Assembly: GCA_018814765.1 (NCBI GenBank)
Contig: JAHIZJ010000050.1
Span: 1 to 37,024 of the forward strand
Origin: Patescibacteria group bacterium
GTDB lineage: Bacteria; Patescibacteriota; Patescibacteriia; JAHIZJ01
DNA: 37,024 bases
Direction: 5' to 3'
The notes below the pieces were generated by a model, which saw nothing but the letters and a program-made list of their open reading frames with translations, was not told where the DNA came from and did no database searches. This document shows positions 13,597-15,918 of the stretch, one piece after another. Position 1 is the first letter of the stretch; the number at the start of each line of letters is the position of its first letter. The translations under genes and the position numbers were made by a program.

Positions 13597-13625
13597 TTGA
13601 CAAAATTATTAATGTATATTAACAT
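13597..13625 (+). promoter_or_regulatory. Promoter for the SAM-riboswitch cassette
   Basis: TTGACA (13597-13602), 17 bases, TAACAT (13620-13625). The predicted start near 13632 lies just before the first aptamer at 13654. A second TTGACA at about 13638 has a poorer spacing to TATAAA. Confidence 0.55.
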
Positions 13626-13653
13626 GATATCATCTTTGACAAACTATCAATAT

Positions 13654-13760
13654 GTTATAAAGAGAAGTGTGAGGGAACTGGCCCTTTGACCACTCAGCAA
13701 CCATCCTGGCTTACATGCTTGGAACGGTGCTACATCCATCCTAAACCTAGGAAAGATAAT
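13654..13760 (+). ncRNA. SAM-I (S-box) riboswitch aptamer 1
   Basis: The order of conserved blocks matches the S-box: AAAGAG, GAGGGAACTGGCCC, TTTGA, CAGCAACC, then GGTGCTACATCC and GAAAGATAAT. P1 pairs GTTAT with ATAAT, P2 pairs AGTG with CACT, and a P3 hairpin lies between CAACC and GGTGC. CCTA-aacc-TAGG forms P4. S-box RNAs bind S-adenosylmethionine and usually turn genes off. An intrinsic terminator follows at 13781-13804, which fits that mechanism. Confidence 0.85.
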
Positions 13761-13780
13761 ACTATTTCAAGTGTTAAATG

Positions 13781-13804
13781 ACTTTCCTGATGGGAAAGTT
13801 TTTT
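13781..13804 (+). terminator. Riboswitch-linked terminator
   Basis: ACTTTCC pairs with GGAAAGT over a 5-base loop and is followed by TTTTT. It lies 21 bases after aptamer 1, in the expression-platform position. Confidence 0.8.
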
Positions 13805-13825
13805 GATAGAGTCCTATCACTGAGA

Positions 13826-13912
13826 AGTTGTTAAGAGTGGTGTGAGGGAACTGGCCCGCTATCAACGCCACAGCAACCTGTCTCAACTATACGAAGAGAC
13901 AAGGTGCTCCCA
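13826..13912 (+). ncRNA. SAM-I-like aptamer 2 (variant)
   Basis: The core is repeated: GTGTGAGGGAACTGGCCC is shared with aptamer 1, then CAGCAACC, a P3 stem TGTCTC/GAGACA, and AAGGTGCTCCC. The P2 arms differ from aptamer 1 but still pair (TGGTG with CGCCA). The 3' block is GGTGCTCCCAGCC rather than GGTGCTA..TCC, so the J4/1 side is altered, and no clear P1 partner is seen. It may be a weaker or different-specificity aptamer. Confidence 0.65.
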
Positions 13913-13972
13913 GCCCCGTACCAGTCCCCTGCACCGGAGCGAAAGTAACTGGTGCAAGGTCCGGTACAGGGG
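13913..13972 (+). repeat. GTACCAGTC-type hairpin, copy 2
   Basis: CCCCGTACC pairs with GGTAC-a-GGGG, and an inner CTGCACC pairs with GGTGCA. The alternative GTCCCCTG/CAGGGGAC pairing is mutually exclusive with these, so the segment could switch. The outer sequence is identical to the hairpin at 2977-3021 (minus strand). No T-tract follows. Confidence 0.65.
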
Positions 13973-14027
13973 ACCACAACTTTCTCTTTATCGCCCGGCC
14001 AAATAGTGGTCACGAAAAGGAGGAAAT

Positions 14028-14438
14028 ATGGCTTTAAATAGCCCGCAGCGCAACGCTATCGAGACACTTCTTCGCAGTAGACGGTTTGATAAGGAGCAAC
14101 AACCTACCGTCCCTCTTCTGTCATCTGTTCAGACCGTTGGTGGAGCAACATTATATCTTCTAGGGGTGAGCGAGGGGAGAAGCGGGCGTTCACTCAATAT
14201 GACAGGAGTAAACATCGCTGTCTTTGGCACCCAACCCCCCAGTGATGATCCACCACAACTACCCCGGGGACTACTAGTTGATAACGGCCAGCTGGTACAC
14301 GCCGCCGTCCTTCTGGGTAAGCCCAATAGGCCCAGAGTTGCCAACGAACTCCAAGTAACTCTTCTTTCGTCTACGGGTGAAGATCATCTAGTGAGACCGT
14401 CTGGTAACCCTGTTCGTTTTTGTAGAGCCATATGCTAG
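14028..14438 (+). CDS. Hypothetical SAM-riboswitch-controlled protein, 136 aa
   Basis: I do not recognise this protein. It starts MALNSPQRNAIETLLRS with AGGAGG 5 bases before the ATG. The middle part is beta-rich with Gly (VGGATLYLLGVSEGRSGRSLN, VNIAVFGTQPP), followed by LPRGLLVDNGQLVHAAVLLG; the C-terminus has two Cys (RFCRAIC). There is no signal peptide or helix-bundle membrane pattern. Its leader holds two S-box type aptamers, so its expression should follow S-adenosylmethionine levels, which suggests a link to methionine or SAM supply; nothing in the protein itself shows this. Confidence 0.65.
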   Translation: MALNSPQRNAIETLLRSRRFDKEQQPTVPLLSSVQTVGGATLYLLGVSEGRSGRSLNMTGVNIAVFGTQPPSDDPPQLPRGLLVDNGQLVHAAVLLGKPNRPRVANELQVTLLSSTGEDHLVRPSGNPVRFCRAIC

Positions 14439-14449
14439 CTCTTTCTTTG

Positions 14450-14475
14450 GGGAAGCAACCGCGCTTCCCTTTTTT
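14450..14475 (+). terminator. Terminator of 136-aa gene
   Basis: GGGAAGC pairs with GCTTCCC and is followed by TTTTTT, 12 bases after the stop codon. Confidence 0.85.
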
Positions 14476-14798
14476 CTTTGCAAAGAGCCAACTATATGGG
14501 AATGTAAATCTTTAGATTTACCAAAAAACCGAAAACACATCAGTAAAGCTGAAGCTTTACAATCCATAATCCACTACTGCCTATCAACCAGGCCTCGGAT
14601 TAAACCTGCCTACCGCCGTAGCTATATTCTTATCCTTTGGTCTTACTCTTGAGAGCGAATAGCGGGGTATACATTGTCCGCTTTAGTGGCACTTGGTTGA
14701 CAAATATCCAGAATAAGGTTAAATGAAAGCGTTCTTTCATAATGGCGTTCAATAGTCTAGCATAAGCTGGGCTTCCAACCCGTAAGGAGGGTAGTCCG
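14476..14798 (+). promoter_or_regulatory. Intergenic region with possible promoter
   Basis: No gene is supported here. Two perfect small hairpins occur (GTAAATC-ttta-GATTTAC near 14502-14519; GTAAAGC-tgaa-GCTTTAC near 14543-14560). TTGACA at 14697-14702 with 17 bases to TAAATG (14720-14725) could drive the secreted-protein gene that starts at 14799. Confidence 0.35.
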
Positions 14799-15330: not shown

Positions 15331-15918
15331 TTAAGATAATTCTCTCAATATGTCTTTGTCAAGATATACATACGGATATTTTGAATATTTCTTTGACAAA
15401 TCATGTTTCTGATAATTGTTTTTGATATATTTTTGCGTATTGTATAATCTCTGGTCTGTATTGACTATCTGATAATAAAAACGTGGCTGCCAAAAACGGC
15501 CACAGCCAATGCTGCGGGAGAATGTACCCTTGATGGATTGCATAAGGTCCGACAGCGTTGGAGCATGTCCATCCTTTCCACATCGCGGACTGGAAAGTCC
15601 GCTCTGTGGTGTTACTGACAATACACCATTCCCACCACCACAATGCGCCCTTTCTAGGGCGCATTCACCTATTGTATGATACTCATGTTTTTTTACTAAT
15701 AAATGGACATACTCTGGTAGAATACAAAAGGATATCAAATCAAATCTTTTCAATTTACAAGCACGAAAAACCACACTAGCCAATTTCCCTGCTTTTCCAA
15801 TATCATCAAACGCCCATCTATGATATGAAACATTCGTGGTTACAAAGTACGGGTATTCATTTTGATAAAACGCTCTTTGGGTCAGATAAAAAAAGACGGG
15901 GTGTATTATTCCCGTCAA
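15331..15918 (-). CDS. REP-associated tyrosine transposase relative (Y1_Tnp)
   Basis: A 195-aa member of the IS200/RAYT family. YPYFVTTNVSYHRWAF is the N-terminal strand and LISFCILPEYVHLLVKK the region of the HUH motif (residues 69-74), where the usual His-x-His is YVH. The helix that should hold the nucleophilic Tyr reads LMQSIKGTFSRSIG, with Phe in that place. RFWQPRFYYQIV and KYIKNNYQKH match the C-terminal part. Residues about 86-121 are an insertion encoded by two palindromes. Both active-site changes suggest it no longer cuts DNA. The start is a TTG overlapping the previous stop (TTGA), so it may be translationally coupled. Confidence 0.75.
   Translation of the reverse strand: MTGIIHPVFFYLTQRAFYQNEYPYFVTTNVSYHRWAFDDIGKAGKLASVVFRACKLKRFDLISFCILPEYVHLLVKKHEYHTIGECALERAHCGGGNGVLSVTPQSGLSSPRCGKDGHAPTLSDLMQSIKGTFSRSIGCGRFWQPRFYYQIVNTDQRLYNTQKYIKNNYQKHDLSKKYSKYPYVYLDKDILRELS
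15585..15665. repeat. Two REP-like palindromes inside transposase relative
   Basis: GCGGACT-ggaa-AGTCCGC (15585-15602) and AATGCGCCC-tttcta-GGGCGCATT (15642-15665) are perfect hairpins 39 bases apart, arranged like a paired REP. They keep the frame open and encode the Gly/Ser/Cys-rich insertion. Confidence 0.65.

Follow-up and report, generated by a model that had tools for sequence, protein, structure and literature searches.

A canonical and a variant SAM-I-type aptamer in tandem upstream of a gene from an uncharacterised Patescibacteria protein family

SAM-I (S-box) riboswitches are OFF switches as a rule. They usually control methionine and SAM genes, and the transcription-attenuating form of the class (RF00162) combines a four-way junction, a pseudoknot and a conserved pocket with an antiterminator and a terminator. 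Tandem SAM-I aptamers have been described before, with 164 doubles and one triple reported (PMC9481103). Tandems of SAM-II and SAM-V are known as bi-mechanism leaders, in which the first aptamer is associated with a terminator and the second lies at the ribosome-binding site (PMC9481103). The translational SAM-I switch of the Xanthomonas campestris met operon has a canonical aptamer beside a hairpin of the Shine-Dalgarno (SD) and anti-SD sequences, masks the SD in either of the folds that the bare RNA adopts and has initiator tRNA as an input (PMC7270179). Finally, the spermidine riboswitch is a SAM-I variant that keeps the scaffold and is altered at otherwise conserved positions (PMC10853860).

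The locus analysed here lies in a window of 37,024 nucleotides, which is contig C8 of a 1.38-Mb Patescibacteria genome in 139 contigs (G000). The family and order of this genome hold two further genomes, G001 and G002. The named relatives of its trigger factor are Magasanik-, Falkow-, Uhr-, Komeili- and Kuenenbacteria and Parcubacteria, which points to a CPR bacterium and probably to the ABY1 group. The locus is a monocistronic unit 3' of a divergent trigger-factor gene and consists of a promoter-like site, a first aptamer (copy 1), a terminator, a second aptamer (copy 2), an SD, an ORF of 136 aa (P0001) and a terminator (Table 1). A sequence-only reading had proposed two S-box-type aptamers in tandem before a gene of unknown function, and both are recovered with RF00162, at 61.1 and 32.4 bits. 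It had also called such tandems unusual; they are rare, but the published doubles show that they are not new. Like these doubles, the leader carries two SAM-I-type aptamers, whereas copy 2 scores below the Rfam cut-off as a variant and is predicted to act on translation. The leader resembles the SAM-II/SAM-V tandems in the position of terminator and ribosome-binding site, except that both aptamers are of SAM-I type. It resembles the Xanthomonas switch in the SD/anti-SD hairpin beside a SAM-I aptamer, and differs from it in the aptamer and in the target, here an uncharacterised small protein. The novelty lies in the variant aptamer and in the protein family, each with a putative function. For CPR bacteria that are uncultivated, the targets of riboswitches give one of the few strong indications of what a gene does. 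We read the leader as a two-level ('bi-mechanism') SAM-I tandem that would act on transcription and then on translation, the small protein being made at low SAM for SAM or methyl-donor homeostasis; we give this reading an even chance. The transcription unit probably starts just 3' of the promoter-like site, i.e., 5' of where the sequence-only reading had begun. An IS200-like transposase ORF (window positions 15331-15918, PF01797, E 4.2e-6) lies between the 136-aa gene and a CNNM/CBS gene.

Table 1. Features of the tandem S-box locus (positions in the window).
Feature	Position	Strand	Evidence
Sigma-70-like promoter TTGACA-17-TAACAT, likely leader start	13597-13625	+	Consensus scan, 10/12 matches; weak evidence
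Copy 1, canonical SAM-I aptamer (P1 5' arm 13652-13659, 3' arm 13755-13762)	13652-13762	+	RF00162, 61.1 bits, above cut-off
Antiterminator, GGAAAG 13750-13755 with CUUUCC 13782-13787; inner hairpin AAUAC/GUGUU	13750-13787	+	MFE of nascent leader
Intrinsic terminator of copy 1, GACUUUCC-UGAU-GGGAAAGUUUUUUG (hairpin 13780-13800, then T run)	13780-13805	+	Terminator scan, fold
Copy 2, variant SAM-I-type aptamer	13822-13986	+	RF00162, 32.4 bits; MFE four-way junction; same variant in G001
Copy 2 P1, GAGAAGUUGU with ACAACUUUCUC, one bulged U	13822-13831 with 13976-13986
Copy 2 P2a, GUGGUGU with ACGCCAC, 7 bp	13837-13843 with 13865-13871
Copy 2 P3	begins 13872
Copy 2 pseudoknot, CUGG with CCAG	13851-13854 with 13910-13913 or 13921-13924
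Copy 2 P4	13914-13922 with 13963-13972
Anti-SD UUUCUCUUU (13981-13989, overlaps P1 3' arm) and SD-masking sequestor hairpin	13981-14025	+	Folds with and without P1; same layout in G001
SD of the 136-aa ORF, AAGGAGG	14017-14023	+
P0001, 136-aa protein, uncharacterised Patescibacteria family	14028-14438	+	SD, terminator, in-frame homologs in 6 other genomes
Intrinsic terminator of the 136-aa gene, just past the stop	14449-14476	+	Terminator scan

Copy 1 matches the RF00162 model over its full length (1-108), with an E-value of 6e-12 in a cmscan of the whole window and well above the cut-off of 44.4 bits. It had been described as near-complete and followed by an intrinsic terminator, and both descriptions hold. 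In a nascent leader lacking the 3' arm of the terminator, the MFE structure is an antiterminator (-35.8 kcal/mol, vs -30.6 kcal/mol with P1 forced) that recruits GGAAAG and the 3' strand of copy 1 P1. In the fold of the complete leader, the terminator coexists with copy 1 P1. The folds and the terminator scan thus predict a competition between P1 and the antiterminator 5' of the intrinsic terminator. On this model, copy 1 is a bona fide SAM-I aptamer in the textbook OFF arrangement, with all the elements of the transcription-attenuating form, and it is predicted to bind SAM. At low SAM, GGAAAG and the P1 3' strand would enter the antiterminator and transcription would proceed; with SAM bound, P1 would keep its 3' strand and the terminator would form.

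Copy 2 scores below the same gathering score (match at 13825-13951), and we therefore name it a SAM-I-type variant and do not file it as a standard member of the class. The match is not a chance one, given its E-values of 4.2e-5 in a 1.2-kb region and 1.1e-5 genome-wide. It breaks off within P4; the actual 3' arm of P1 lies further 3' (Table 1), in agreement with the variant 3' block noticed in the sequence-only reading; the changed P2 arms noticed there still pair, over 7 bp. Folded alone, copy 2 has as its MFE structure a four-way junction of P1 to P4 together with the SD sequestor (z-score -4.45). The pseudoknot between L2 and J3/4 can form with 4/4 CUGG-CCAG pairs in copy 2 and in the related aptamer of G001 (type 2 hereafter, copy-1-like aptamers being type 1).

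Copy 2 departs from SAM-I at several places. Besides the 7-bp P2a, its k-turn has a longer bulge and has lost one of the two G.A pairs. The bulge, GUUAU, is also found in the metK S-boxes of two other genomes (G018 and G156) and is therefore tolerated. P4 is far longer than in SAM-I. J3/4 lacks its AAUU and J4/1 its AAAG, both junctions being rebuilt, in G001 too. The near-invariant A6-U88 pair is G6-C88, likewise in G001. In a simple motif count over 115 S-box matches from the class and from the family, UAU is present in P1 in 105 and GAU in the P1 3' strand in 111; copy 2 and the G001 aptamer are among the few with neither. The conserved bases of SAM-I include U4, A6, U7, A87 and U88, G11 and A12, G19, A20, G35 and A36, G21, A24 and C31, the P3 core and A61 (PMC3764141). 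Most of these are present in copy 2, as are the ligand-facing bases G11, A45, C47, U57, G58 and U7 (hand-mapped numbering). Those missing are, beside the A6-U88 pair, G35, A61 and the adenines of J4/1. Spermidine riboswitches are altered in J1/2 and in the P3 internal loop; in contrast, copy 2 has AAGAG in J1/2 and GCAACC/GGUGC in P3 intact, keeps G11, and precedes no polyamine gene.

The comparison with related genomes suggests that both types of aptamer are old. Beside the trigger-factor gene, the one aptamer of G001 is of type 2 (22.6 bits), and the one aptamer of G002 is copy-1-like (41.8 bits) and has a terminator. Copy 2 is closer to the G001 aptamer (78% identity) than to copy 1 (67%), which implies that types 1 and 2 predate the split of these genera. 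For comparison, the trigger-factor proteins of the G000 and G001 loci are 56% identical. The P3 core of copy 2 is that of G001 letter for letter. Copy 2 and G001 keep 98.7% of the 75 proposed pair cells paired, compared with 37-51% when the partners are slid. The two sequences are so alike that no pair is altered on both sides (two type-2 rows being too shallow for covariation), and these figures are therefore to be read as conserved pairing and not as strong covariation. A type-2 covariance model scored above 170 bits only in G000 and G001, the next best of the 381 genomes reaching 47-58 bits. Judged from these alignments, copy 2 is not a decayed S-box but a conserved variant, which in G001, a related genus, is the sole S-box of the locus. 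Such a variant is a natural experiment on the changeable parts of the SAM-I fold. The S-box of G002 has an apparent extra hairpin (CCGGAUUCUCAAUGAGUCCGG) at J1/2, which the Rfam alignment reads as P1 (L004 1480-1530).

The gene controlled at this locus has changed. In place of P0001, G001 and G002 encode a Cys-rich protein of 64 aa, and the switch has thus outlived an exchange of the gene that it controls. A relative of this protein lies 3' of the S-box of G307, and a weaker one about 640 nt beyond that of G025. These proteins (KPC...CPW..C.L..KNPP, 64-76 aa) have no Pfam match and are found 3' of S-boxes in L004 1679-1873 (G002), L005 1689-1883 (G001), L101 (G307) and L122 (G025). Since a type-1 aptamer in G002 and a type-2 aptamer in G001 each precede related proteins, the two types may well have the same output and signal.

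The terminator scan found no terminator 3' of copy 2. Its P1 3' strand continues into UUU; across the SD, UUUCUCUUU and AAGGAGGAA can form pairs, with the same layout in G001. With a terminator 3' of copy 1, none 3' of copy 2 and an SD hairpin abutting copy 2 P1, the leader is a candidate bi-mechanism one. The SD is unpaired at 9-13% with the P1 core formed (-86.2 kcal/mol), at 2% with P1 blocked (-82.8 kcal/mol) and at 73% with P1 lengthened to ten pairs (-81.6 kcal/mol). The sequestor tolerates a P1 of 7 bp and competes with a longer one, so that thermodynamics alone gives no direction for copy 2. OFF is favoured as the usual direction of SAM-I switches, and because the copy-1-type switch of G002 precedes a relative of the G001 protein. 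It is also favoured by the precedent of Xanthomonas, where a proven SAM-I OFF switch masks the SD in both states (PMC7270179). On the same folds the direction may be ON, with an extended P1 freeing the SD. A candidate antisequestor for copy 2 (GACCAC/GUGGUC) was rejected, since imposing it raises the folding energy by 12 kcal/mol and G001 does not conserve it.

The features of copy 2 allow for other explanations. It may have changed its ligand, e.g., to SAH, MTA or another compound of the SAM cycle, or its direction may be ON, the tandem then being a two-input or opposing gate. We consider this rather improbable. The pair adjacent to the sulfonium, near-universal in the class as A6-U88, is the one replaced in copy 2 and G001, and the rebuilt J3/4 and J4/1 are common to both. 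In SAM-I, the oxygens of U7 and U88 face the sulfonium (PMC6914780), but a cytosine at position 88 still provides its O2. SAM-I scaffolds can switch ligand, as the spermidine riboswitch illustrates (PMC10853860), yet G11 and the P3 loop altered in that variant are those left intact here. A reversal of direction would fit the overlap of the P1 3' arm with the anti-SD and the release of the SD by a lengthened P1. Against both changes, the related proteins behind type 2 in G001 and type 1 in G002 argue for the same signal.

Alternatively, copy 2 may sense no ligand and be a degenerate S-box, left as a static structured leader or an SD-masking hairpin while copy 1 alone regulates. Its score below the cut-off, its altered k-turn, J3/4 and J4/1, and the masking of the SD in either fold would be explained in this way. 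Decay is however at odds with an identity of 78% to G001, where even the coding gene differs, and with an identical P3 core; moreover, type 2 is the only S-box of the G001 gene. We regard this explanation as unlikely. A recent duplication of a single S-box, or an artefact of its assembly, is a highly improbable origin of the tandem. The core GUGUGAGGGAACUGGCCC is common to both copies, which are separated by about 60 nt, but they are only 67% identical, copy 2 is nearer to G001 than to copy 1, and their platforms differ. In the two-level reading that we prefer, copy 2 would be a remodelled SAM-I aptamer, most likely still sensing SAM or a close relative. It would act on translation, since its P1 abuts and overlaps the SD-masking hairpin, probably as an OFF switch. 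The outcome would be tight repression, with the small protein made as SAM falls.

The sequence-only reading had noted that CPR bacteria often lack methionine or SAM metabolism. This does not apply to G000, which encodes an intact metK, nor to the 56 genomes of the class in which metK lies behind an S-box. No S-box was detected at the metK of G000, and the search for S-boxes elsewhere in the genome returned only a third match of 18 bits (E 0.18), which we rejected as chance. An S-box match was found in 110 of the 381 genomes of the class, metK being the commonest target. In this survey, about half of the genomes with S-boxes have no metK behind one, and the other targets that were examined are for the most part uncharacterised. 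Among the targets besides metK are a cytosine-C5 methyltransferase, a further methyltransferase and an MTHFR-like protein, along with many small proteins that have no family. S-boxes before cytosine-C5 DNA methyltransferase, MTHFR-like and methyltransferase-like proteins are found in L080 (G075), L066 (G198), L070 (G076) and L111 (G038). Recurrent families of small proteins without Pfam match (L007-L116) include one of about 140 aa, seen in about 8 genomes, whose motifs are FPFNVLF/YEPDL. A zinc-ribbon-like CPxC family of 39-65 aa occurs 3' of S-boxes in 4 genomes. A second, independent tandem S-box is present in one other genus (L060, G203:C28 32890-33195; L074, G010:C10 330-634), with targets of unknown function.

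P0001, described earlier as of unknown function, is without a match in Pfam, NCBIfam and PHROGs, but it is not the ORFan it had been taken for. Searched alone against the named genomes, P0001 found no relative; its relatives surfaced only through the neighbourhoods of S-boxes and through profiles. The S-box of G244 precedes a relative of 128 aa (BLASTP 2e-7, a single comparison), and profile searches added members in G332, G315 and G182 and, from beyond the class, in G386 and G396. The family thus numbers at least 8 proteins, spread over 7 genomes and with two in G315. Leave-one-out profiles regain every member, and the one built without P0001 finds it with an E-value of 2.7e-9, with 0 of 3164 decoys below E 10. 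Five relatives have in common a GTCSxxHG motif that is absent from P0001 and from the G244 and G182 members. A profile of six members matched no PDB chain below E 0.5. An isolated Pfam match of one relative (VinK_C, E 0.0026) was set aside, and a single-sequence AlphaFold model of the 136-aa protein (pLDDT 36, pTM 0.26) was meaningless and was not used.

The genomic context links part of this family to SAM. Members lie 3' of S-boxes in G000 and G244. In G332 and in G315, which is of the same genus, a member precedes metK by 75 nt on the same strand; the G386 member is separated from metK, on the opposite strand, by one FKBP-like gene. No link to a SAM gene was seen for G182, G396 and the second copy of G315 (three of the seven lineages of the family). 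The analysis began with G000, and it was the S-box of G244 that led to the member there; independent tests are thus confined to the metK cases, in two lineages. By these associations, we infer a SAM-linked role for the family. Nothing here indicates the salvage, transport or stress gene suggested earlier. The small protein might contribute to SAM or methyl-donor homeostasis, perhaps in concert with MetK. This function is testable, because the S-box ties the family to SAM and the independent metK neighbourhoods agree. A bolder reading seems to us doubtful: a new Patescibacteria family acting with MetK in SAM homeostasis, a copy 2 altered in ligand or reversed in output within a two-input leader, and a new SAM-dependent branch formed by the S-boxes of the class that precede small proteins.

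Two further observations concern the surroundings of P0001 relatives. The G386 gene (L222 1270-1500) has a terminator-like hairpin with a T run immediately 5' of its SD, in a leader of >200 nt that has no Rfam match and is possibly an undescribed regulatory RNA. The gene 3' of the G244 relative (L020/L117) resembles the S-box target of G283 (L079), with a common C-terminal WYPL, a likeness that may point to a network among the small proteins behind S-boxes.
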